From a virus, in the IMG/VR virus record IMGVR_UViG_3300000117_000355, positions 1-20,555 of that record: 20,555 nucleotides of DNA, one strand, 5' to 3'. Both the position numbers and the translations under genes were made by a program. Below the pieces are notes generated by a model that had not been told where the DNA came from, searched no databases, and was given only the letters and a program-made list of their open reading frames with translations. Below, piece by piece: positions 2,043 through 15,758 of this stretch; within the stretch, counting starts at the first letter, position 1; each line of letters starts with the position of its first letter.

Positions 2043-4571
2043 TCACTTTGCTGCGTTTTTGTAGTCATCCGATGTTGCTCCTGGTGAGTTCAAAGCCTGA
2101 GCTTGCCCAGGGCTAAGAGGAGTTAACTTCGGCCTCCGTACTTTTTCGCCATTTATTGTTTCCTCTACAGCTTGTGGCTGAAGTAGGAAGTATTGTCCAT
2201 TATCGTAGATTAAAGCGAAGCCTTCGCCAAGGGCTTTGAACTCACCCTTACGTTGTTTAACCTCTTCAAGATAAATACCGTAAGCGTTCTTAAGGTTCTC
2301 TATCTTAAGATCGCCCAGCAGTTTGTCACGTTGTTTAGCAAGCTCAACCTCAAGATCGACGCCTTTTTCAAATAGATATGTCTGACGCTCTGTCTGTAGC
2401 TTAATCTGGCTTTCACGATATGCTTGGCTGTAAGTACGCTGTAGTTTGTCAGATAGCTCAGCCATAGTGTATGTCTGCTGGCGAGTGCCGTTAACCATAA
2501 GATCATAGTTGCCGTCTGAGCGTGGCACGACTTGTATATCTAAGCCAGAGAATGCTGACAGAACTGCACCTGCACGAGCGGTGGAGCCAAAGGATAAATC
2601 CTGTAGAGCTTGCGCACCCTGTACTAGAAGCATTTTGTTGTCGAACTCTTGCATAGCCACTCGAGCTTTGTTCTGAGCGTCTAGACCGCTATTGCGTAGG
2701 TCGTTAGACTGTTTGATAAGCCCATCAGCTAAACCGCTGTATCTCTCAAACGTAGCAATCTGGCCGTTAGCCAGTGCAATGTCTGCAAACCTGTCGTACT
2801 CAGCTGCTTTTGCATTGTTAGCATTGATCTGATCGTTCAAGGACTGAAGTTGGCGATTAAGATTATCGACTCCTAGCTTTCTACCGTTAAGCAAGTTCTG
2901 CATTTCGATACCAATGTTAGGCGGGTTCTGCAAAAACTTAACAATCTCTTGCTCAGGCTCTGTTACCTCAGTAGTGGCAATAGATTCTTTTTCAGTGCCG
3001 TCCGCATTGGTTACTGTTTGTGTCTGCGCTGTGCCTGTTTGCGCTGTGCCTGTTTGGGCTGTGCCTGTCTGCGTTGTATCTGTCTGCGTTGTATCTGTCT
3101 GCGTTGTATCTGTGCCTGCGACCTGTGTCATAACAGGCTGGCCTACACCAGACCCAGCGATTGTGTTTAAGTCAATGCCATAAGGCATCTCAACATCTGA
3201 AAGCTGTTTGCCGTACGTGGCAGCAATGTGGTTATAGAGACTTACATACGCATTGTTGTAGTCAGAGTTACTAATGTTGCCATCATCTACATTTAGTGGC
3301 GCACCAGCTTCTAAAACTTTATTGGCATTAGCCTGATACCCAGCACCCCAAAGGTTTTTAGGTAGGCCAATGGCTTTGTTGTAGATTAGTTGCGCTAACC
3401 CGCCGTAGATTTCGCCGCCGTTGCCGCCTTGCCCGCGTCCATTAGGCATTTTCATATTGGAGAACGTCTGGATTGCGTAGTCTACACGGGCTTTATTCAC
3501 TGTGCCGTCTGCCATAGTGAACGCGCTTTCGATAGCAGCGCGATTAGCAGGATCAGCAAACCATGTCTTTAGTCTTTTGAATTGGGCAGGCATAACCTGC
3601 ATACCGCCTTTAGCACCTTTGCTGCTGGTACCAGAGTTACGACCAAAGTCAGACTCAATACCAAAAATAGCAATCGCAGCGAATGGGTCGATGCCAAGAT
3701 CGTTAGCCATTTTGTAAACGCGTTGTACTTTGTTGCCGCCTATTTCAGTTTTAAGCCCTTCGATACGACCACTGATTAGCTTTTGTGTGCGTAATGAAGA
3801 TTTATCGGAGACCTCAGAGGTAACTCGCTGATCACGCTGAGAAGAATACTCATACGCAAACACAATCGGGTCTTGCTTGGCAGTAGCTAAAAGCTCAGGT
3901 TTGTTATAAAACAGACGGAACGCTTCATCACTAGACCACCACTTATACGCATCGCCCTGTTCTTTGGTGACGTTACGCCCAGCCATACCTGCTTTACGCC
4001 TGATACCCGCTGACTTCATAATTTCGCTTATAGAAGTTTGTAGACCCTTACGCTTAGCAATCTCGCCCGTTCTAGCAGCGTTATTAAATGTGGATAAGTC
4101 AGGGAGTTCTGGGCCTAGCTTAGGTAGTAGGTCAGCACCATCTTGTGCAAAAGGGTCTAGAAGCGGTGTGTCGCCGCCAGGTTTTAGTGAACCATCTGCC
4201 GATGGCTCTATAACAAGGCTACCATCTGGATTGCGCTTAGGCGTTAGCTTTGGCTCTGTAACATTGCCGAGGTCATCACCATCATACTGGCCGTCTGGGC
4301 CAAGGTTATCCACCTTAGGTGGAGGTTTAGGGATGTCACGCAGGCCAGGTTGTTGTAGGTTGTCAAACGCAAACGCATCGCCAGGATTAAAGGGGGCAAC
4401 TTGCCGCACAGCCGCAGGATCTGCAGGCTTAGCAGAGTTCATCATGTCTTTAGTAAACTGGTTCTTACGTTGCAGTGCTTGTAGTCTACTAGCAGACGTT
4501 ACCGCCCCTTCGTAGTCCTCCGCCGACTGCATCCCCAGTGCGCCACCTATAAAATTTCCGAGCAATGCCAT
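2043..4571 (-). CDS. Internal virion protein with lytic transglycosylase (SLT) domain
   Basis: An 842-residue protein. Residues 1-150 are Pro/Asp/Gly-rich. A lytic transglycosylase-like domain lies at about 285-455: YKMANDLGIDPFAAIAIFGI leads to catalytic Glu306 in E-S-D-F-G, then KGGMQVMP (321-328, the GxxQxMP-type motif), GGLAQLIYNK, GYQANANKV and YNNAYVSLYNHI. This matches SLT enzymes that cut the glycan strand, as in the T7 gp16 N-terminal domain. Residues about 487-516 are a six-fold pentapeptide repeat (QTDTT/QTGTA type). The rest (about 550-790) is largely coiled-coil helix (LNRQLQSLNDQINANNAKAA, LKIENLKNAYGIYLEEVKQR). GGAG precedes ATG. It would open peptidoglycan for DNA entry. Domain call is strong; placement in the core is inferred. 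Confidence 0.83.
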   Translation of the reverse strand: MALLGNFIGGALGMQSAEDYEGAVTSASRLQALQRKNQFTKDMMNSAKPADPAAVRQVAPFNPGDAFAFDNLQQPGLRDIPKPPPKVDNLGPDGQYDGDDLGNVTEPKLTPKRNPDGSLVIEPSADGSLKPGGDTPLLDPFAQDGADLLPKLGPELPDLSTFNNAARTGEIAKRKGLQTSISEIMKSAGIRRKAGMAGRNVTKEQGDAYKWWSSDEAFRLFYNKPELLATAKQDPIVFAYEYSSQRDQRVTSEVSDKSSLRTQKLISGRIEGLKTEIGGNKVQRVYKMANDLGIDPFAAIAIFGIESDFGRNSGTSSKGAKGGMQVMPAQFKRLKTWFADPANRAAIESAFTMADGTVNKARVDYAIQTFSNMKMPNGRGQGGNGGEIYGGLAQLIYNKAIGLPKNLWGAGYQANANKVLEAGAPLNVDDGNISNSDYNNAYVSLYNHIAATYGKQLSDVEMPYGIDLNTIAGSGVGQPVMTQVAGTDTTQTDTTQTDTTQTGTAQTGTAQTGTAQTQTVTNADGTEKESIATTEVTEPEQEIVKFLQNPPNIGIEMQNLLNGRKLGVDNLNRQLQSLNDQINANNAKAAEYDRFADIALANGQIATFERYSGLADGLIKQSNDLRNSGLDAQNKARVAMQEFDNKMLLVQGAQALQDLSFGSTARAGAVLSAFSGLDIQVVPRSDGNYDLMVNGTRQQTYTMAELSDKLQRTYSQAYRESQIKLQTERQTYLFEKGVDLEVELAKQRDKLLGDLKIENLKNAYGIYLEEVKQRKGEFKALGEGFALIYDNGQYFLLQPQAVEETINGEKVRRPKLTPLSPGQAQALNSPGATSDDYKNAAK
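3025..3114. repeat. Six-copy 15-bp tandem repeat inside the transglycosylase gene
   Basis: Six consecutive 15-bp units can be read on the plus strand. Three resemble TGCGCTGTGCCTGTT and three resemble TGCGTTGTATCTGTC. They encode pentapeptides of the QTGTA and QTDTT types on the minus strand (residues about 487-516). The 3+3 arrangement suggests stepwise slippage or unequal exchange from two ancestral units. The reading frame is preserved because the unit is a multiple of three. The tract separates the lytic domain from the C-terminal coiled-coil part, so it is likely a flexible Thr/Gln linker. Confidence 0.88.
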
Positions 4572-7748: not shown

Positions 7749-10123
7749 TATGATGTCCTCAATCCGTAGGGTGTCTCTCCAAAGTGTATAGCTCTAACAC
7801 GAGCGGAACCTGACACGCCCACTTCAAATGTATCCGATCTGTAGCCAGTTGGCAATCTGAATATATCAGAAGTTTGTATAGACCCTTGGAAGACAAGCTG
7901 TTTATCTACCCAAAGCTTAAACGTTACAGGCTGAGTTCCGGTGTTAGCTTTCTGGTACTGAGTTTGTGGGTCGCCGTTTATGACGTATGTGTTAATTGAG
8001 CCGCCAATAGTAAAAGTAACACCACCACTCTGGTAGTTAGTAGGCCCGTTAAGTGTACCTATCTGCTGGCTTCTATTCCAAATAGTCTGGTTAAAGTTTG
8101 CTAGCCCTAAGTTGTAGGCGATAATATTAGCAGCTTCCTGCGCAGATGTATCGTAATCAGCAATTACTCTAAACGCACCTAGGTTAAGATAGTCTTTGGT
8201 GACAATGGTTTTAGACTTCCACTCCATAGGTGAAAGAACTTCCCCAGTATTGTCCCACTCATATATCTCACCGTCGTTTCCGTGAGTGTAGTACATGATG
8301 CCGGTTTCGGAATCTGTGTATGCAGCACTGAACCGGTACTGAACCTGTACAAAGAACCCGCCAACTTTATCGTCACGCTCAAATATAAATGACCTGGTAC
8401 TGTGAGACCCAAAGTATTTGCCGTTGTAAAAGTGACCAACAATGGTAGATGGGTCTAGAGATGCGTTCCAAGTATCCCAGTCGTGGACAAACTGAGTTAT
8501 AAGTTGGACACCGCCCCCACTAGGACTCCATGTAGCAAGGCCCCCATGCGTAGACCACACGACCCCGTAACCCATATTAACAACGGACTGCTTAGACAAA
8601 CATGGATACGGCGTGTCAATACGTGCTGACACCATTGTCGCTGGATCGTTACCGGATACCTGATGAGGGTAGTCCTCTGTAAGCACAAGCACATAGCCTG
8701 CAACAGACGCAATCGCTACAATGTCGGAATCAAATGTTATCCTATACTTCTCTGGCCACGCATGTGGTGTATCAGGGAATGAGAAACATAACTGGTTGCC
8801 AAAGAACCCGACCAAAATATTGTTGTGCGAGGTTATAAGCCCCTGCATATTATCAGGTGGTGGGTCATACTCCTCTGACGGAATAATAGTTTCTAAGCTG
8901 GATACAGTAAAATCATCTGTAAAGTTATAGTTAGCGTCACCCCAATACCTAGCAGCATCATCAAGACTTTCAGACACATCGTGGTACACAGTACCTGCAG
9001 AAGCATTGGTCGTTCCAACATCAGTAGCAGTCTGTGCGTAACTAAACGTGTAGTCATCAGCAATCGCGGTAACTTCACCGTCTGTGATATTAAAGCTGCT
9101 ATCTGAACATGCGCTAATCTTAAACCTGTCGCCAACAATAAAGTTATGTGGGAAGTCTGTAACGACAGTAGATACATTGCTGGTTCTCGCCACTGTGGCG
9201 ATAGTAGTAGGAAACCACAGTGTCGCCAATAAAAAGTAGTCCGTGGCAGCTGCAGAAGCTACGCTTCGGTACAACCTAATACCACGGACAAAGTTATCCC
9301 CCGACGGTTTAGCCGAGGGCAGGGAGGAGACAGTTACTGTTTGACCTTCTTTAATATATAGCTCGTTAGACACATTGGATGGTATGGACTCTTCATCCCA
9401 CGGAGTAACAAACGTAAAAATATAAGTTCTAATCTGTGTGTTGCCTGCGAGGTCTGCTCGACCTGTGGTGTTCGAAGTCTTACTTACTGTGTCGCCAGAA
9501 CTAAAATACTGGAACTCTGTAGCGCTTGTTACAGTAATCTCTACGTTCTTGGCGTTAAACCCTTTAGCCTCATCAGAAGTACCAAAGTCACGTATAGTTA
9601 CAATATTGCCTGTACGTAAGTTGTGGTTGCCAGAGCAATAGAAAGTAGCTGTATTGCCTGAGTCGCGCTCATAGTGAGTAGCGTTAACAACAGTAAAAGA
9701 TGCTGCTGACACGCTAGGTGTAGTAGTAGGGAGCGGTATCCCTAGATCGTAGTACCCATTAACAACTGGGTACGGCTCACTACCAGCTGTAGCCAGTGCG
9801 TAGTCAGATACCTTAGGCTTTCCGTCACCTGTATAGTAGAATCTTTGTGCGTTGTCTGCGCTATCTGATGCAATAGCAATGTCAACATCAGTAGTCCAAG
9901 ACAGCCACACAAGCGCGTCAGTGGTAGGGTCACGCAGCGCATGAAGGGTCTTAGCCTCAACGCTACGCTCTGTATTATCCACCTCTTTGGGTGTGTGGTA
10001 AGGTAGCAAGTCGCCAGAGTAAAGCTTTACGTTAAAAGCTTCTTGGGCCACGCCATCAGGTAGCAACTCCGAAGATATCTTCGGTGCTTCGCCTAGAAAC
10101 TTTGTAAGCTTTACTGACGCCAT
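7748..10123 (-). CDS. Tail nozzle-like (tail tubular protein B-like) virion protein
   Basis: A 791-residue beta-rich protein opening MASVKLTKFLGEAPKISSEL, then PDGVAQEAFNVKLYSGDLLP. This 'iss.lLpdgvAqea.N..l.sGdL.P' N-terminus is shared by podovirus nozzle proteins of the T7 gp12/P22 gp10 type. The middle and C-terminal thirds contain blade-like repeats expected of a beta-propeller: NNILVGFFGNQLCFSFP, IASVAGYVLVLTEDYP, NMGYGVVWSTHGGLATWSP, FYNGKYFGSHS, and MYYTHGNDGEIYEWD. The last 130 residues form a beta-sandwich (FRLPTGYRSDTFEVGVSG). GAPK and other signature residues lack catalytic meaning, so a structural role is inferred. It follows the endolysin with only a weak SD, suggesting translational coupling, and begins the ejection block. 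A wider 'tail hub' label is possible. Confidence 0.7.
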   Translation of the reverse strand: MASVKLTKFLGEAPKISSELLPDGVAQEAFNVKLYSGDLLPYHTPKEVDNTERSVEAKTLHALRDPTTDALVWLSWTTDVDIAIASDSADNAQRFYYTGDGKPKVSDYALATAGSEPYPVVNGYYDLGIPLPTTTPSVSAASFTVVNATHYERDSGNTATFYCSGNHNLRTGNIVTIRDFGTSDEAKGFNAKNVEITVTSATEFQYFSSGDTVSKTSNTTGRADLAGNTQIRTYIFTFVTPWDEESIPSNVSNELYIKEGQTVTVSSLPSAKPSGDNFVRGIRLYRSVASAAATDYFLLATLWFPTTIATVARTSNVSTVVTDFPHNFIVGDRFKISACSDSSFNITDGEVTAIADDYTFSYAQTATDVGTTNASAGTVYHDVSESLDDAARYWGDANYNFTDDFTVSSLETIIPSEEYDPPPDNMQGLITSHNNILVGFFGNQLCFSFPDTPHAWPEKYRITFDSDIVAIASVAGYVLVLTEDYPHQVSGNDPATMVSARIDTPYPCLSKQSVVNMGYGVVWSTHGGLATWSPSGGGVQLITQFVHDWDTWNASLDPSTIVGHFYNGKYFGSHSTRSFIFERDDKVGGFFVQVQYRFSAAYTDSETGIMYYTHGNDGEIYEWDNTGEVLSPMEWKSKTIVTKDYLNLGAFRVIADYDTSAQEAANIIAYNLGLANFNQTIWNRSQQIGTLNGPTNYQSGGVTFTIGGSINTYVINGDPQTQYQKANTGTQPVTFKLWVDKQLVFQGSIQTSDIFRLPTGYRSDTFEVGVSGSARVRAIHFGETPYGLRTS

Positions 10124-10635
10124 TAGTTCACCATTTTTAACGCAGCTTCAAGCGTCTCATTATTTCTGCGAGTCCAGCCTCTGCCGAAGCTATCAAATGT
10201 AGAGAGGGACTCATAGAAACTTTGCCTGATATTCTTGTAATTTTCAAGTGTATTCTCAATCCCGTGGTGTTCGACATATTCGTTAAGGGTGCGTAAAGTA
10301 TTGGGGCCAATGCCGCCATCTACCTCTGTACCAATCATACCTTGCAGTTTCTTAGCCGCTCTCCCAGGCCCAGAGTTTACACTCCAGTCAAAGACCGCGA
10401 GGTCTAAGCCCGCAGGAAGCTGGTCACACTTAGCTTTACCCCAGTAGTTTTTCTCGTATATTGGAGCAACATCTTCTGGTGTAAGCTCCTTCATATCCTT
10501 AGTGCCACCCCACTCTTCATAAACGCGCTTAGTAACACCAAGGTTTGTTTCGCCCCCAGGATCACGGGGGTGATTTACCCAGCCGCCTTCGTGGTGCAAA
10601 ATTATAGTTAAGCAGTGCTGAAAGTTACCCTTCAT
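10123..10635 (-). CDS. Endolysin, glycosyl hydrolase family 108 with PG-binding domain
   Basis: A 170-residue peptidoglycan hydrolase. The N-terminal motif HHEGGWVNHPRDPGGETNLG gives the GH108 signature, with catalytic Glu16 in E-G-G-W and the D-P-G-G-x-T-N-x-G-V-T element at 25-35. A conserved YW (64-65), D83 and NSG (87-89) follow. Residues about 95-165 (KLQGMIG, VDGGIGPNTLRTLN, FGRGWTRRN) match the PG_binding_3 domain usually fused to GH108. The length is normal for this family. No signal peptide or signal-anchor is present, so it would need the adjacent holin to cross the membrane. It overlaps the holin by ATGA and the nozzle gene by TAATG. N-acetylmuramidase activity is expected from the family. 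Confidence 0.9.
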   Translation of the reverse strand: MKGNFQHCLTIILHHEGGWVNHPRDPGGETNLGVTKRVYEEWGGTKDMKELTPEDVAPIYEKNYWGKAKCDQLPAGLDLAVFDWSVNSGPGRAAKKLQGMIGTEVDGGIGPNTLRTLNEYVEHHGIENTLENYKNIRQSFYESLSTFDSFGRGWTRRNNETLEAALKMVN

Positions 10636-11027
10636 TTAGTCAATCCTTTTACTTTTTCTACTGTGCGGAGTCCGCCAAGCCCGAGCATCCCAAGGAGAAC
10701 AGTCATCAAACTATCCATATCAAACACGGGCAAATCTGGTGCTTCCATGCCTGCGTATGCAAAACCAAACATAGTCACGGGCGCAAGCACAAAGTGCCAT
10801 ATCATAGCCGTCGCTAGGCCCCAGCCAAGAAAGGGTCGCCAACCCGCCACAAAAATAGACCGGTGTTGGGCTTCAGCTTTGTTAATCTCGATTTGGCCCA
10901 TCGCCTGCTCGTGCATTTGTTTTTCGGCCATCGTGGCAATGTCATGCGCGAGCTTTGCCTTCTGGTCTTTATCTTCGATGAACTTATCTAGTAGCCCTGT
11001 AACTGGGCCAATCAGTGCTTGTAACAT
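10632..11027 (-). CDS. 3-TM holin of the gene-transfer-agent type (GTA_holin_3TM-like)
   Basis: A 131-residue protein. Residues 1-55 are an amphipathic charged region (LLDKFIEDKDQKAKLAHDI, MGQIEINKAEAQHRS). Then comes the signature IFVAGWRPFLGWGLATAMIW, followed by hydrophobic segments at about 66-92 and 106-120 and a basic end. The 'Q.EIN.AEAqH.s.FvaGWRPfiGW' block followed by hydrophobic helices is typical of the 3-TM holin family first described in gene transfer agents (PF11351). It would form membrane lesions that release the endolysin encoded next. AAGGA precedes ATG by a normal distance, and the endolysin start overlaps its stop as ATGA. The family call is strong by motif; lysis timing cannot be read from sequence. 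Confidence 0.85.
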   Translation of the reverse strand: MLQALIGPVTGLLDKFIEDKDQKAKLAHDIATMAEKQMHEQAMGQIEINKAEAQHRSIFVAGWRPFLGWGLATAMIWHFVLAPVTMFGFAYAGMEAPDLPVFDMDSLMTVLLGMLGLGGLRTVEKVKGLTK

Positions 11028-11030
11028 TTG

Positions 11031-11492
11031 CTATCCTTCTATGTTAAAGCGGAGGTTTTGATGGTCGGGGTAGTTGACCACTACCTGCCCTTCCGGACAA
11101 CCATAGTGTATATACGCTATAAGCGTAGCTTCCCCAGTCGCCACCTCCTCTGGTTTGTCGAGAGTTATCGAATACGCGAACGTATCCACTTTATCCGTGG
11201 CTGGCCCCATAAACTTAGTTATGGAGGGTGTTGCTTTATGTACAAACAACTCACTGTCACGAACATCTAGGATAAAATCAGTAACCGTACAATCATCACG
11301 GTGTTTCTCACGAGCTACCGCTACCTTAAACGAGCCGTCAGCTGGCCCTGAACTAATAGCAAAATGCTCTGGTGCCCAAGTAAGGATAGGGTCATCAAAC
11401 CCAATTTTGTCGTACAAACTATACCCTCCACCAACTAACGCTAGCGCAGCAGTAACAGCCCCGACTCCTTTTGTAATGTTATCAATATCCAT
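11031..11492 (-). CDS. Membrane-anchored beta-rich protein of unknown function
   Basis: A 153-residue protein, MDIDNITKGVGAVTAALALV at the N-terminus, in which residues about 8-27 form a Gly/Ala-rich transmembrane segment. A motif region follows (ILTWAPEHFAISSGPADG), then beta-rich sequence ending LIAYIHYGCPEGQVVVNYP. Cys68 and Cys132 are the only cysteines and could pair if the domain is periplasmic. GGAG lies 8 bases before ATG, and the start overlaps the previous stop (TAATG). It stands next to the holin. I see no lipobox, catalytic residues or coiled coil, so it is not a recognisable Rz. It is probably an envelope-located accessory of lysis or superinfection control, which is inference. 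Confidence 0.65.
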   Translation of the reverse strand: MDIDNITKGVGAVTAALALVGGGYSLYDKIGFDDPILTWAPEHFAISSGPADGSFKVAVAREKHRDDCTVTDFILDVRDSELFVHKATPSITKFMGPATDKVDTFAYSITLDKPEEVATGEATLIAYIHYGCPEGQVVVNYPDHQNLRFNIEG

Positions 11493-11704
11493 TAATACAG
11501 CTCCGTACTTGCAGCTACCTTAACAGGCTTACAATAAGCCGTAGCTTTATGCTCAGCAGGAACACCGCTTATACTTCCGTAGTTTCCATAGCGTTTTGTT
11601 ACTTGAGACGCAAAGTAGTTACACTCTACCACGGATCTAAAATACATATCTTGGCTCTGTATTTTATCCCCCAATACGACTACTAGCAAAAACGCATGTA
11701 TCAT
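11492..11704 (-). CDS. Small protein with N-terminal membrane segment and two cysteines
   Basis: A 70-residue protein starting MIHAFLLVVVLGDKIQSQDM. The first 12 residues are hydrophobic and could be a short anchor or uncleaved signal. The rest, with YFRSVVECNYFASQV and ATAYCKPVK, looks soluble and would face the periplasm if exported. Cys28 and Cys58 could form a disulfide there. The start overlaps the EF-hand stop as ATGA and the stop overlaps the next start as TAATG, so it lies in a coupled envelope-gene run. I recognise a conserved phage hypothetical but no function. A spanin-like role is possible but has no direct support: no lipobox is seen. Confidence 0.62.
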   Translation of the reverse strand: MIHAFLLVVVLGDKIQSQDMYFRSVVECNYFASQVTKRYGNYGSISGVPAEHKATAYCKPVKVAASTELY

Positions 11705-12015
11705 TTCTTACCCGCCCAAGCAGTAGCACCCATATACGCACCGACTATGCCAGCGCCTGAGATATAGAATAGATTACTTATGTCGGATAAAGCTGTAACC
11801 CTGTCTAACGGTATAAAAAACATAGACAGTGTGAACACACCCATTGAGATTAGCGTGTAGCGAGCCATACGTAGTTGGGCTAAATGTTTGCGGAGGTTAT
11901 CTTCTGTTTCACGAATCTCTTTAGCTCGTGCCATCTCTTCATCAGAAACAACGCCGTCGTCATTCATATCATACGCGTCGTATTTACTTTGATCTTCTAG
12001 TTTCTTAGCCGCCAT
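11701..12015 (-). CDS. EF-hand protein with two transmembrane helices
   Basis: With the start at 12015 the product has 104 residues (MAAKKLEDQSKYDAYDMNDD). A longer frame to 12072 would use TTG and overlap the upstream gene by 47 bases. GAGGAG 6 bases before 12015 decides for the short form. Residues 16-27, DMNDDGVVSDEE, match the 12-residue EF-hand loop exactly: D1, N3, D5, G6, hydrophobic 8, S9 and E12. A charged helix follows, then two hydrophobic segments at about 52-68 and 82-100. Calcium binding near the membrane is therefore plausible, although single EF-hands usually pair by dimerising. Similar small EF-hand/TM proteins occur in marine phages. Function unknown; perhaps tied to lysis timing, by position only. 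Confidence 0.75.
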   Translation of the reverse strand: MAAKKLEDQSKYDAYDMNDDGVVSDEEMARAKEIRETEDNLRKHLAQLRMARYTLISMGVFTLSMFFIPLDRVTALSDISNLFYISGAGIVGAYMGATAWAGKK

Positions 12016-12021
12016 ACTACG

Positions 12022-12027
12022 CTCCTC
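12022..12027 (-). promoter_or_regulatory. Ribosome binding site deciding the EF-hand gene start
   Basis: GAGGAG lies 6 bases before ATG 12015. The longer frame would need TTG at 12072, deep inside the upstream gene, so the 104-residue form is favoured. Confidence 0.75.
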
Positions 12028-12466
12028 ATGCTGCGCGATTCCGCTGGTACAGCCACCAGACAAAAACCCCAAGAGCTGCTATTCCGATAATAAAACACGC
12101 AACTAAAACAGAAACTTCTATCCACCACTGTATCTTTTTCTTGTTCGCCTCTTCTGCTTCTCTGCGGGCTTTACGCGCCTCTACTTGAAACCGCACCCAG
12201 TCCTGCCAAAGTCCGGGCCTACCGCAGTATATCATTATCTGCTTCAGCTCGTCTTCTTGCTCTTTAACGCGCTCTAAGGCCATAAACTCTTCGAAGTCTG
12301 TTGACTGATGAGCGGCCTTTTTCTTGTTTACTTTTTTCTGTAGAGACTCTTTTGCCCCTACAATCTCGCCTATTTTATGCGCGTATTGGCTTAGCTCTCT
12401 CCCATTGGAGACAGCATTTTTTATAACCGAAAACGCGGCATTGGCGGCGGCAAGTTCTGCTAACAT
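12026..12466 (-). CDS. Tail-anchored coiled-coil membrane protein, conserved in phages
   Basis: A 146-residue protein beginning MLAELAAANAAFSVIKNAVS. Residues 1-110 are helical and strongly charged, with NKKKAAHQ, FEEFMALERVKEQEDELKQ and the striking CGRPGLWQDWVRFQVEARK stretch. Residues about 114-140 form one transmembrane helix flanked by Trp (IQWWIEVSVLVACFIIGIAA, WWLYQRN), giving a cytoplasmic coiled-coil anchored by its C-terminus. GGAGGG sits 7 bases before ATG. It resembles a protein seen repeatedly in marine and T4-like phages without known function, sometimes near lysis genes. A role at the inner membrane during lysis or virion release is inferred from topology and neighbours. Confidence 0.72.
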   Translation of the reverse strand: MLAELAAANAAFSVIKNAVSNGRELSQYAHKIGEIVGAKESLQKKVNKKKAAHQSTDFEEFMALERVKEQEDELKQIMIYCGRPGLWQDWVRFQVEARKARREAEEANKKKIQWWIEVSVLVACFIIGIAALGVFVWWLYQRNRAA

Positions 12467-12494: not shown

Positions 12495-12638
12495 CTAGCC
12501 GTAAACTTTTTTCATGCACTTTTTAGCTATTGAGCACGCACGTTTAGTCTTACAGCCTGGGCACATCTTAAACACTGAGCCTCCAGCTTTGTAAGAAGCC
12601 AAAGTTTTTTTCTTATCAGTTTTCTTTTTGTCCATCAT
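12495..12638 (-). CDS. 47-aa Lys/Cys-rich small protein (possible zinc knuckle)
   Basis: A short gene starting ATGATG at 12638 and ending TAG. An ideal AGGAGG lies 6 bases before the first ATG, inside the end of the XhlA-like gene. The product starts MMDKKKTDKKKTLASYKAGG, then has SVFK, MCPGCKTKRACSIAKKC and a MKKVYG end. Cysteines lie at 26, 29, 35 and 41 (spacing C-x2-C-x5-C-x5-C), and about a third of residues are lysine or arginine. That fits a small metal-binding or nucleic-acid-binding peptide. Similar small 'CxxC...C...C' basic proteins occur in phages as uncharacterised genes. The strong RBS, ATGA coupling and cysteine pattern make it a real gene; its function is unknown. Confidence 0.75.
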   Translation of the reverse strand: MMDKKKTDKKKTLASYKAGGSVFKMCPGCKTKRACSIAKKCMKKVYG

Positions 12639-12823
12639 GTTGAACCTCCTATTAGAATCGCGCTGAGGATAGACCCCATACCAACTATTATTGCACCCGC
12701 TGCAACAATTAGAATCCGCTCAAGGCGGTCAACCCTAGTTATAAAGGTCTGATACCTTTCAGCACAGACCGCTTCGTGGGTTAATATTTCCTGCTGTAGT
12801 TCAGCTACCGTCATTTTGGCCAC
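12635..12823 (-). CDS. XhlA-like small membrane protein with GTG start
   Basis: A 62-residue protein initiated at GTG (12823), with GGGAGG exactly 6 bases upstream. ATG at 12814 (M4) lacks an equally placed SD, so GTG is preferred. Residues 1-35 form an amphipathic helix (VAELQQEILTHEAVCAERYQ, VDRLERIL) followed by a hydrophobic segment of about 20 residues (LIVAAGAIIVGMGSILSAIL) and a short tail. A cytoplasmic coiled-coil helix followed by one transmembrane helix is the architecture of XhlA/hemolysin-type holin partners. It overlaps the preceding gene by 23 bases and the 47-aa gene as ATGA. The similarity is architectural; membership of the XhlA family needs a profile search. Confidence 0.6.
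   Translation of the reverse strand: MAKMTVAELQQEILTHEAVCAERYQTFITRVDRLERILIVAAGAIIVGMGSILSAILIGGST
12645..12650 (-). promoter_or_regulatory. Strong ribosome binding site for the 47-aa gene
   Basis: AGGAGG lies 6 bases before ATG 12638 and is embedded in the last codons of the XhlA-like gene. It is among the best SD matches in the window and is a main argument that the 47-aa frame is translated. Confidence 0.8.
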
Positions 12824-12995
12824 TAATAGCCTCCCGTACTGCTTTACTCTGATCGTCTATCTTTACCTCTACTTCTTCCGGCAGATCCGGTTCCTCTACA
12901 AGCACGCAACCCTCAGGCACTTTGTCTGCTGTTCTAGCAAACGTACCGTTGGGGAACATATATAGAGGAGTAGGTTTCATGGTTTTGTCGGCCAT
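12801..12995 (-). CDS. Small acidic conserved hypothetical protein (64 aa)
   Basis: MADKTMKPTPLYMFPNGTFA begins a short soluble protein with TADKVPEGCVLVEEPDLPEE and a charged end (KIDDQSKAVREAISGQND). No membrane segment or catalytic motif is visible. Two ATGs are possible. The one at 12995 overlaps the chaperone by 19 bases. The one at 12980 (M6) would overlap as ATGA, like many junctions here. Neither has a good SD, so the start is uncertain. It stands between the fiber cassettes and the membrane-protein run. I do not recognise the family; a tail or lysis accessory role would be a guess. Confidence 0.58.
   Translation of the reverse strand: MADKTMKPTPLYMFPNGTFARTADKVPEGCVLVEEPDLPEEVEVKIDDQSKAVREAISGQNDGS
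12830..12835 (-). promoter_or_regulatory. Ribosome binding site supporting a GTG start
   Basis: GGGAGG lies 6 bases before GTG 12823 and sets the start of the XhlA-like gene inside the preceding gene. The next ATG (12814) is 15 bases away from this SD, a poorer spacing. Confidence 0.72.
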
Positions 12996-13261
12996 ACTAC
13001 ATCAGCTAGTGATGTGTAAATGTTGGTGATATCCCGCAGCGCTTGCCGATAATCTATCTGTGCTTGAGTCATAGTTACATCAGAGTTTGCCCACCAATCG
13101 GTTTCGGCTAGTTTTGAATTTCGTTTCGATCTAAGCATAATTAGATCAGTCGCTGGCCTATCAGTTTCAACTTGCGCCCACTCCGCCTGCTTAGCAATAA
13201 GCTCATCACCAGAAAGCTCTACTCGCTCACCATTTACAAATTGATAATATTGCTCAGCCAT
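12977..13261 (-). CDS. Tail fiber assembly chaperone, second cassette
   Basis: A 94-residue protein starting MAEQYYQFVNGERVELSG. The C-terminal part, with LRSKRNSKLAETDWWANSD, TMTQAQIDYRQALRDIT and final WPTKP, closely matches the chaperone at 14437-14790 and fits the Phage_tail_APC family. The N-terminal half is unrelated by eye to that paralogue. It begins 2 bases after the second fiber stop, with GGAG about 9 bases upstream of ATG. The repeated order fiber-chaperone, fiber-chaperone implies that each chaperone serves the fiber upstream of it. The role is family-based; the pairing is inferred. Confidence 0.78.
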   Translation of the reverse strand: MAEQYYQFVNGERVELSGDELIAKQAEWAQVETDRPATDLIMLRSKRNSKLAETDWWANSDVTMTQAQIDYRQALRDITNIYTSLADVVWPTKP

Positions 13262-13263
13262 AA

Positions 13264-14424
13264 TTACCGCTCCACCCCAAATATTTGAAAATCCCCGTAA
13301 GAACTATTTCCGCCGACTCCGTATAAATGGACACCTGTTAAGCCTGTATGAGGATTGGTGTACTCTAAAGTAGACGCAAACTCTTCTTCGTAGTGCTCAT
13401 GGGTAGTTCTATTTTGAAGCTGTGACATTCCGCGTACACCGGTTCGAGATGAACCATTGCGGGGTACTGTTATGATTGCTGTACCATGGGAGTTAAAACC
13501 TGTTCCATTACCGGCCAGCCAAGCAAAGTTTTGGTTACCAGCATAAGAAACACTGTTTATGGTATCGGCACTTGCAGTAGATTCACGCCAACGAACGTTA
13601 TTCCAATAGCTAGTTGAGGAAATATCTCCGCTGCTATTCCTAAATCTAAGGTAGGTGGTAGTCCAACTTGGGCTATGATCCACCATCCAATACAACACAT
13701 AAGTTGTATATTTCGTGTAGTCAAAAACATCAAAGATAGCGCCGGTAGTGTTAGAAGTCCAAGAAGACTGGCCTAGTAGAACTAGCCCGCCGCCAAACAT
13801 CTTACCATTGATAGTAACATCGCCATTAGTGTTTACTTCTAGTTTATTGGCGATAGTACCCGCTGGAACTAGAGATACTTTACCAGGACTCGACCAAACA
13901 TAAGTCTCACCAGCTGCAAGACTATTACCTCCACCTGTTCCGTTGTGAATTAAATAACCTGAGCTGCTATCTGTCTTTGCTTCGTAATAAGAGTACTGAA
14001 CTCCAGCAGTCGTGTTTTCGAGTCTCACACGAACTTGAGTGGCTTCTGTGCCTGTAATATGTAAAGCTTCTGCTGCTGTACTCTCTATATCTACAACACC
14101 AGAAATTGTACCTCCGTCTCCGAGATCAATATCTTCAAACAGAGCAGCTACGGGGCGAAGCTCGAACCTGTCGCCAATCACGTAAGCCCTTGCAGTTGTA
14201 TCATCTTGGCCGCGAACAACAGTCATAGAATCTGTAGACCGCGCAGTTACCTTTACGATCTCGAGATTATTAGAAGTATCAACGATAGTACCGTAAAAAT
14301 AGTCGCCAGCACCAAGCGTAGGGAATCGGGCACCCTGTCCTGAGTCCAGAGTAACTGTAGTGTCAGAAGAACTAATACCGGCTGACAGAGTGCCAAAAGC
14401 ATTATTTGAAACTTTTACGCCCAT
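13264..14424 (-). CDS. Tail fiber protein, second cassette
   Basis: A 386-residue protein. Residues 1-94 repeat the N-terminal module of the fiber at 14787-15758: MGVK, NNAFGTL, GQGARFP, YFY, DTSNNLE, TTARA and GDR-ELR are all kept. The rest differs: a shaft with DGGTISGVVDIESTAAEAL and NKLEVNTNGDVTINGK, typical of phage fibers carrying fragments of annotated 'image' repeats. A C-terminal domain of about 175 residues follows, rich in aromatic residues and Ser/Thr/Asn (YVLYWMVDHSPSWTTTYLRF to GDFQIFGVER). That tip is unlike the first fiber's, so the two probably bind different targets or form different fiber segments. GGAG lies about 9 bases before the ATG. No autocleavage or chaperone domain is visible inside the protein. 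Confidence 0.75.
   Translation of the reverse strand: MGVKVSNNAFGTLSAGISSSDTTVTLDSGQGARFPTLGAGDYFYGTIVDTSNNLEIVKVTARSTDSMTVVRGQDDTTARAYVIGDRFELRPVAALFEDIDLGDGGTISGVVDIESTAAEALHITGTEATQVRVRLENTTAGVQYSYYEAKTDSSSGYLIHNGTGGGNSLAAGETYVWSSPGKVSLVPAGTIANKLEVNTNGDVTINGKMFGGGLVLLGQSSWTSNTTGAIFDVFDYTKYTTYVLYWMVDHSPSWTTTYLRFRNSSGDISSTSYWNNVRWRESTASADTINSVSYAGNQNFAWLAGNGTGFNSHGTAIITVPRNGSSRTGVRGMSQLQNRTTHEHYEEEFASTLEYTNPHTGLTGVHLYGVGGNSSYGDFQIFGVER
14143..14424 (-). repeat. Duplicated fiber N-terminal module, copy 2
   Basis: This stretch codes for the first 94 residues of the second fiber. They match the first 94 residues of the fiber at 14787-15758 (coding 15477-15758) at about 62 positions by eye, without gaps. 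The rest of the two fibers is not similar, so the copies mark a module shared by swapping or duplication. Confidence 0.75.
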
Positions 14425-14436
14425 CGTTTGTTACTC

Positions 14437-14790
14437 CTACGGTTTAGTTGGCCACGCAAAACCGTCATCATCTATAGATGAATAGGTATTTGTAATATCA
14501 CGCAGTGCTTGGCGGTAATCTGTTTCAGCTTGAGTCATAGTGCGATCAGAACTAGCCCACCAGTCTGTCTCAGCGAGACGTTGGTTGCGTTCGGCTCTAA
14601 GTTTTTGCAAATCATACTCTGTATTTATTTCGGATATTTTATTTACTACCGCTGTAGAGTCTATATCTACAGAAACAACATTGCCGCTTGCGTCATAAGC
14701 AGAAACCACACCATCTGTCTCGGATATGTCAGTAACATTTGTATAAACGTCCATAATGGCCTTATGTTTTGGAGTTATGATTATAGTCAT
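14437..14790 (-). CDS. Tail fiber assembly chaperone, first cassette
   Basis: With the start at 14790 (MTIIITPKHKAIMDVYTN) the protein has 117 residues. A longer frame back to 14823 would begin with TTG inside the fiber gene. I prefer 14790 because it is ATG, has GGAG 8 bases upstream and overlaps the fiber stop as ATGA. The C-terminal half carries LRAERNQRLAETDWWASSD, TMTQAETDYRQALRDIT and WPTKP, a pattern typical of the phage tail assembly chaperone family (Phage_tail_APC, PF16778). Such proteins help fibers fold or trimerise and are encoded next to their client. The variable N-terminal half differs from its paralogue at 12977-13261, which would fit client-specific recognition. This is inference. 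Confidence 0.78.
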   Translation of the reverse strand: MTIIITPKHKAIMDVYTNVTDISETDGVVSAYDASGNVVSVDIDSTAVVNKISEINTEYDLQKLRAERNQRLAETDWWASSDRTMTQAETDYRQALRDITNTYSSIDDDGFAWPTKP

Positions 14791-15758
14791 CCTGCTATCT
14801 CCATCAATATCATAGTCGAGCAACCTCTACCTTGGTTAGCATCGCCCAAGGTAGTCATAACATTTATACTTACTGTACGGTTGGCTGTTCGCATTGGGCT
14901 GACCTGGACGCTGTATGTTGTGGCACTGGTCGTACTCGGAGAATCTAAAAACTGGTAGTTTACTGGTTCAAATAGATACGGGTCTCTAGCATCATTACCT
15001 GTACGAGTAGCAAAGAAAGTTGCCTCTGTTTGAGAACCTGAATCTGCAATTTGTACAGTAGTGCTTCCTCGCTTCAACAAGTACGCAGGGAAAGCATCTT
15101 GGTTTTCACCTTGTGAAATGTTCACCATTATCAGAATTTTACTGGATGTACTTGATGGCGTTATTGATGTGTTTAAACCTGTGATTGTCTGAAACGCAGT
15201 ACCAGTATAGGAAGCTGTGCTTGTTAGACTTGTCTGCACAACTTGCAACACCTTACCAGCCCCACCCCAGCTCATCGTGCCGTCACCGTCAGACAGTAAC
15301 ACTTGGCCCGCAGTACCATTGCCGGAAACGTTAAGAGCTGCTGCTCCAACTGCGTTATCTGCAATTTCTGCTGCACCGACTACATCGTTATCTAGTGACC
15401 AAGTAGCACCATCTGATGAAACAGTGATGTCGCCCTTGTCGCCATCTAGGTTGACTGTCGTTATATCGTTCAACCCAGCGGCTGTGACACGAAGTTCTAC
15501 ACGATCCCCCACAGCAAAAGCTCTAGCTGTAGTGCTTTCTTGTGCGCGAGTAATAGTTAGAACATCGCTTGACCTTGCTGTACACTTTACAACTTCTAGG
15601 TTGTTGCTTGTGTCAATTAAGGTTGCGTAGAAATAGTTCCCTGCGGACAAAGATGGAAAACGAGCGCCCTGACCACTTGAAAGTGTCAAGCTAGCATCAC
15701 CGGAAGCAATACTGGCGTTCAGAGTGCCGAAAGCATTGTTGGCAAATTTTACGCCCAT
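14787..15758 (-). CDS. Tail fiber protein, first cassette
   Basis: A 323-residue protein. Residues 1-94 (MGVKFANNAFGTLNASIASG, the GQGARFP turn, TSNNLEVVK, TTARAFAVGDRVELR) form a compact beta module nearly matched by the second fiber at 13264-14424 (about 62 of 94 residues identical by eye). Such modules attach fibers to the virion. The middle (about 100-168) is a low-complexity linker with GDKGDITVSSDG and a GTAGQVLLSDGDG motif typical of fiber shafts. Residues 170-323 (GKVLQVVQTSLTSTASYTG to CSTMILMEIAG) are a distinct beta-sandwich-like tip, probably receptor binding. AAGGAG precedes the ATG. The stop overlaps the chaperone start as ATGA. Fiber role is well supported by context; the receptor is unknown. 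Confidence 0.75.
   Translation of the reverse strand: MGVKFANNAFGTLNASIASGDASLTLSSGQGARFPSLSAGNYFYATLIDTSNNLEVVKCTARSSDVLTITRAQESTTARAFAVGDRVELRVTAAGLNDITTVNLDGDKGDITVSSDGATWSLDNDVVGAAEIADNAVGAAALNVSGNGTAGQVLLSDGDGTMSWGGAGKVLQVVQTSLTSTASYTGTAFQTITGLNTSITPSSTSSKILIMVNISQGENQDAFPAYLLKRGSTTVQIADSGSQTEATFFATRTGNDARDPYLFEPVNYQFLDSPSTTSATTYSVQVSPMRTANRTVSINVMTTLGDANQGRGCSTMILMEIAG
14799..14802 (-). promoter_or_regulatory. Ribosome binding site deciding the first chaperone start
   Basis: GGAG lies 8 bases before ATG 14790, which overlaps the fiber stop as ATGA. This favours the 117-residue chaperone over a TTG-initiated longer form from 14823. Confidence 0.68.
15477..15758 (-). repeat. Duplicated fiber N-terminal module, copy 1
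   Basis: This stretch codes for the first 94 residues of the first fiber and pairs with 14143-14424. Shared elements include NNAFGTL, SGQGARFP, DTSNNLE and TTARA. It probably provides virion attachment, because the distal parts of the two fibers differ. Confidence 0.75.

Follow-up and report, generated by a model that had tools for sequence, protein, structure and literature searches.

A predicted EF-hand, two-helix membrane protein in the lysis gene block of aquatic phages and its possible link to calcium

Does the lysis gene block of some phages encode a protein that reads calcium? The question is raised by a small gene at 11701-12015 on the minus strand of the window, by which we mean the whole stretch of viral DNA analyzed (IMG/VR record IMGVR_UViG_3300000117_000355, positions 1 to 20,555; 20,555 nt). 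Its product carries a single EF-hand loop from D16 to E27 (DMNDDGVVSDEE) followed by two membrane helices, and from these features the first-pass annotation had raised the possibility of Ca2+ sensing and of an effect of ion levels on lysis or superinfection. As judged from sequence comparisons, hundreds of marine and freshwater phages carry such an EF-hand two-helix membrane protein, usually in the lysis gene block. The reading that we favor, with a probability of about 0.4, is that of a class-II-holin-like inner-membrane protein of the lysis module, or of a holin partner, that would be modulated by cytoplasmic Ca2+. The gene, its parts and its neighbors are as follows (TM, transmembrane segment).

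12635-12823, minus strand: 62-aa protein with a C-terminal TM; a similar protein is encoded upstream in relatives including DC31 (neighbor clustering, charge/TM scan)
12026-12466, minus strand: partner gene, encoding a phrog_32327-like protein of 146 aa with a single TM at its C-terminus; its place 1-3 genes upstream is conserved (family searches, neighbor clusters)
11701-12015, minus strand: EF-hand and two-TM membrane protein, 104 aa (translation, 391 family loci, structure model)
11935-11970, minus strand: EF-hand loop of 12 residues, 16-27, DMNDDGVVSDEE (translation, family conservation, profile match to calmodulin EF-hands)
11704-11853, minus strand: two-TM core, residues 55-104, common to loop-less relatives (matches the loop-less family A5 with 97.3% probability in hhalign; model)
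11492-11704, minus strand: 70-aa protein with a hydrophobic N-terminus, its start overlapping the stop of the EF-hand gene; conserved next gene in 23 loci (neighbor clustering)
11031-11492, minus strand: 153-aa protein with an N-terminal TM anchor, without a match in family searches
10632-11027, minus strand: 3TM holin (PF11351 GTA_holin_3TM, E 5.6e-22; phrog_3427, E 2.2e-31)
10123-10635, minus strand: GH108 endolysin (PF05838, E 5.2e-31; phrog_315, E 1.7e-50)

The EF-hand gene is an exact ORF, translating into 104 aa plus TGA. Its GAGGAG Shine-Dalgarno sequence overlaps the stop codon of the gene upstream, and its own stop overlaps the start of the next gene in an ATGA; because of these two overlaps, the gene is placed in a densely packed operon. 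The order of the block is 62-aa TM protein, partner, EF-hand gene, 70-aa gene, 153-aa gene, 3TM holin and GH108 endolysin, with the lysis genes located between tail fiber genes and internal virion genes. The earlier description of the EF-hand gene as lying beside a holin thus holds in part: the holin at 10632-11027 is downstream in the same block, but it is not the next gene, as two genes lie between. Since no spanin was recognized in the window's clades, in which the 3TM holin is present, these two intervening 70-aa and 153-aa proteins could replace it.

Several other features of the window were observed. The 70-aa (11492-11704) and 153-aa (11031-11492) proteins, between the EF-hand gene and the holin, each have two cysteines. 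Between the partner and the 62-aa gene, a small basic ORF of 47 aa (12495-12638, minus strand) contains CPGCKTKRACSIAKKC and possibly encodes a zinc-binding protein. A tail-fiber-assembly-like C-terminal module (LAETDWWA.SD.TMTQA..DYRQALRDITN.Y) occurs in two copies, at 12977-13261 and 14437-14823 on the minus strand, each coming after a tail fiber gene with a shared N-terminus (13264-14424 and 14787-15758); by sequence likeness, the two pairs appear to be a duplicated fiber and chaperone unit. At about 3030-3150 (minus strand), inside 2043-4571, lies the short tandem repeat TQTDTTQTDTTQTGTAQTGTAQTGTAQ; the large protein that contains it also has a segment that is probably a lytic transglycosylase.

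Is the loop a genuine EF-hand? It reads D16-M-N-D-D-G-V-V-S-D-E-E27 and satisfies canonical positions 1, 3, 5, 6, 8, 9 and 12, with D1, N3, D5, G6, a hydrophobic V8, S9 and E12. One could suspect a chance match with no metal-binding role, given that the window protein alone stays below the Pfam cut-off (EF-hand_5, 14.4 bits against 25.9). With such a score one sequence would not settle EF-hand identity, and it is the family that settles it. The family comprises at least 391 loci, some contigs being represented twice, collected from four viral-contig scans with family members, one scan with the C-terminal half, one genome scan and isolate phages; a scan with the phiM12 member gave two loci only. 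Among the matches listed, 384 of 391 family loci carry the EF-hand pattern (PROSITE-type, after PS00018), whereas it occurs in only 4 of the 15,219 unrelated ORFs that these loci contain; the contrast confirms the complete canonical loop described in the first-pass annotation. Three of the seven misses are contig-end cuts, two (Melnitz and phiM12) fail at one position, and two (DLP_6 and cta1H496) are truly loop-less. When members are clustered at 70% identity, 23 of the 25 clusters have the loop, and it was also seen in the intact matches of the scan queried with the C-terminal half only, so that recruitment of members via the loop is not the explanation.

Homologues lacking ligands 1, 3, 5 and 12, which had been put forward as the observation that would speak against the loop, were looked for, and these positions proved to be among the most conserved of the protein. 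Across 89 representatives at 90% identity, ligand columns 1, 3, 5, Gly 6 and 12 rank 7, 14, 2, 8 and 9 of 104 in conservation, while the non-ligand loop positions 2, 7 and 11 drift (ranks 101, 57 and 61). Compared with 17 close relatives, the ligand codons show 42 synonymous and 14 non-synonymous differences, and the other loop codons 14 synonymous and 42 non-synonymous. The ligand columns are therefore under strong purifying selection while the non-ligand columns of the loop drift. Position 12 is Glu in every member with a loop. The family profile matches calmodulin EF-hands in the PDB (E 2.5e-9, profile positions 8-43), and about half of 63 members reach E <= 0.01 against EF-hand_5 (32) and against EF-hand_1 (30). 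We consider it very probable that this is a real metal-binding EF-hand; a chance loop is hardly credible and was discarded on the pattern counts and the family-wide ligand conservation.

An AlphaFold model built with 63 family sequences (mean pLDDT 77, pTM 0.50) consists of a short helix (11-15), a loop, a single helix (25-65) and a second TM (TM2) within 70-103, in agreement with the two hydrophobic segments previously noted after the loop. The helix-loop-helix is thus present in the model, with moderate confidence (pLDDT about 63-75 there), and helix 25-65 is, unbroken, both the exit helix of the EF-hand and TM1. A simple hydropathy scan detects both TMs in 44 of 64 members and only one in the window protein. 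Over 44 members the K/R bias is 3.0 on the N side, 0.8 in the inter-helix loop and 2.4 on the C side; both termini are therefore predicted to be inside, and the EF-hand to be cytoplasmic. Since the two-helix model had no significant match in fold searches of PDB and viral libraries, fold similarity is uninformative.

Is the gene a member of the lysis module? We counted neighbors wherever the EF-hand gene is flanked on both sides by three genes or more, which is the case in 243 loci; these include many close relatives, so that none of the counts that follow are independent. An endolysin lies within five genes of the EF-hand gene in 166 loci, a spanin in 102, a 3TM holin-like gene in 75 and the partner in 125. 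Endolysin and spanin occur without any other recognized holin in 101 loci, and 45 loci have no endolysin, spanin, partner or 3TM holin-like gene nearby. In the DC31-, CRP-9- and related clades, endolysin and spanin genes accompany the EF-hand gene without a further recognized holin, which makes the EF-hand protein the best holin candidate in several clades. In Roseobacter phage CRP-810, the EF-hand gene (loop DLNGNGKLDPEE) directly precedes a gene annotated 'holin family protein', followed by a GH108 endolysin. This gene order and the endolysin count support membership of a lysis module, and the protein probably takes part in the lysis process. Adjacency to endolysin or spanin is a feature of most podo- and siphovirus-like loci, but not of the T4-like or CRP-207-type members, which the earlier lysis reading leaves unexplained. 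Among the T4-like members, phiM12, Melnitz and HTVC008M have the EF-hand gene flanked by gp51 and a tape-measure-like gene, and lysis genes are absent from its surroundings; in DLP_6 the loop-less version directly follows gp51. No recognized lysis gene was found near the EF-hand gene in CRP-207-type clades. What is annotated as 'lysozyme' upstream of it in CRP-207 combines a TM with a coiled coil; a lysozyme match was looked for in a similar protein of the same neighbor cluster and none was found, so the CRP-207 'lysozyme' was not counted as an endolysin. As for the partner, its family phrog_32327 occurs near DNA maturase genes in the T7-like roseophages CRP-113, CRP-361 and CRP-118, even without an EF-hand protein following, and may itself be part of the lysis module.

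Relatives without the loop indicate which part of the protein is constant. A shorter loop-less family (A5), with 36 loci plus Limnohabitans phage DC33, is homologous to the two-TM core (hhalign 97.3% probability, E 1.9e-11), and 29 of the 36 loci have a GH108 endolysin close by. A similar 79-aa protein (hhalign 88.5%) of the Autographiviridae phage CRP-113 directly follows the partner gene and precedes a probable lipoprotein spanin and DNA maturase genes, in the part of the genome that in T7 contains the holin gene 17.5. Because the loop-less relatives share it, the two-TM core is the constant part of the protein, with the EF-hand as a module present in most clades sampled. The DC33 record (PQ492659.1; 39 kb) is labeled Inoviridae, although in both length and endopeptidase lysis block DC33 resembles a typical tailed phage; the label is likely a taxonomy error.

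Taken as a lysis-module protein with a calcium input, the EF-hand protein is most likely the holin where the phage has no other, and most likely a second holin or a holin modulator in phages with a 3TM holin, such as that of the window. The separate 3TM holin of the window weighs against the holin reading, in that the EF-hand protein need not be the holin here, and we put the chances that it is a holin or a direct holin modulator at about even. We infer that Ca2+ would gate the protein, and in which direction. In an intact membrane, low cytosolic Ca2+ would leave the loop empty or Mg2+-bound; a first membrane leak would let external Ca2+ enter and fill it; binding could then stiffen and reposition TM1, because the second helix of the EF-hand runs unbroken into it; and the filled loop might alter the oligomeric state so that triggering becomes all-or-none. 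That lysis timing responds to Ca2+ at all is doubtful, and a Ca2+-gated holin or antiholin, whose EF-hand would respond to Ca2+ entering with the first leak (or upon superinfection) and thereby fix the moment of all-or-none lysis, is rather unlikely. Against Ca2+ sensing, the Ca2+ affinity of a single EF-hand may be low as long as it has no partner in a dimer. EF-hands usually, though not necessarily, come in pairs; each chain has one EF-hand in the sequences read, and pairing would be possible through dimers only.

The near-constant presence of the loop could also be explained if the EF-hand of a lysis-module membrane protein were structural, that is, always filled with Ca2+ or Mg2+ and stabilizing the N-terminus, a dimer or a contact with the partner (12026-12466). 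Such a role, which we regard as possible but rather doubtful, would fit with the loop being almost never lost in EF-hand clades and with a partner gene that roughly half of the loci retain 1-3 genes upstream; single EF-hands, moreover, often act by pairing. It accords less well with the invariant Glu at position 12, a residue that usually favors Ca2+ over Mg2+, and constant occupancy would need more Ca2+ than the cytosol normally holds. Also against it, loop-less relatives exist, from which it follows that the two-TM core is stable without the loop.

The T4-like loci suggest yet another role, in virion or tail assembly, in which the protein would serve as an inner-membrane anchor for the assembly of tails or baseplates, or be ejected into the host membrane at infection, with external Ca2+ setting its folding; proximity to lysis genes in other phages would then reflect a shared late operon. 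In line with this are the T4-like neighbors of the gene (gp51, the baseplate hub catalyst, on one side and a tape-measure-like gene on the other), the loop-less DLP_6 version after gp51, and the tail fiber and internal virion genes flanking the window's lysis genes. Nevertheless, endolysin, spanin and holin genes are the nearest in most podo- and siphovirus-like loci, and the loop-less relatives are also found beside endolysins, so that we hold a virion role to be unlikely. Those T4-like loci and the CRP-207-type loci, without a lysis gene near, still count against the lysis reading, and a lysis role is not proven. Very unlikely, in our view, is a superinfection or host-takeover protein that would use Ca2+ to detect an incoming phage or a membrane breach and block or delay lysis. 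The predicted inner-membrane location with a predicted cytoplasmic sensor would suit it, and T4 antiholins do respond to superinfection (PMC9636201), but the gene has a late-module position and no known antiholin family was matched in family searches.

If the preferred reading of a Ca2+-modulated lysis-module protein is true, a conserved cytoplasmic EF-hand would add calcium as an input to holin timing, and phages would directly exploit the steep Ca2+ gradient across the bacterial membrane. Holin timing responds to membrane energization and, in T4, to superinfecting DNA. The idea raised here is that calcium entry tunes the time of cell burst in widespread aquatic phages. The calcium question is testable, given the large family and isolates with cultured hosts (Roseobacter phages CRP-1, CRP-9 and CRP-810; Limnohabitans phage DC31).

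Searches of open-licence papers on phage EF-hands, holins and calcium did not find a description of this family, nor a published example of Ca2+-gated holin action. No holin family was above cut-off in Pfam, PHROG or NCBIfam-type searches of the window protein; matches to Pfam DUF4337 and NCBIfam models were rejected as weak TM matches. Weak similarity to holin superfamily III, PF07332, was seen in nine of 63 members (best 2.8e-4). The closest family is phrog_27150 (Sinorhizobium phage phiM12 gp165), which has no recorded function and the same EF-hand plus two-TM layout; it is matched by window residues 37-104 (E 6e-5), by CRP-9 (E 5e-11) and by phiM12 (E 2e-96), the phiM12 members differing in a longer N-terminus and in their baseplate gene neighbors. 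GTA_holin_3TM (PF11351) occurs together with the EF-hand protein in the window's gene block and, under the name 'holin family protein', also in that of CRP-810, but it is a separate gene in which similarity to the EF-hand protein was not detected. Class II holins are defined by two TMs with both termini inside (PMC9636201), and the model together with the charge bias gives the EF-hand protein this layout, the topology being predicted. It resembles class II holins such as phi21 S21 in TM number, predicted topology and small size, as well as in having its gene, in many phages, next to those of an endolysin and a spanin, but it adds an EF-hand, does not belong to them by sequence, and in the window accompanies another holin. 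With calmodulin it shares the canonical 12-residue loop with flanking helices, as the profile match reflects, whereas EfhP of Pseudomonas aeruginosa has two EF-hands against one per chain in the phage protein (PMC9132961). Unlike in calmodulin or EfhP, the exit helix of the phage EF-hand is, in the model, continuous with a membrane helix.
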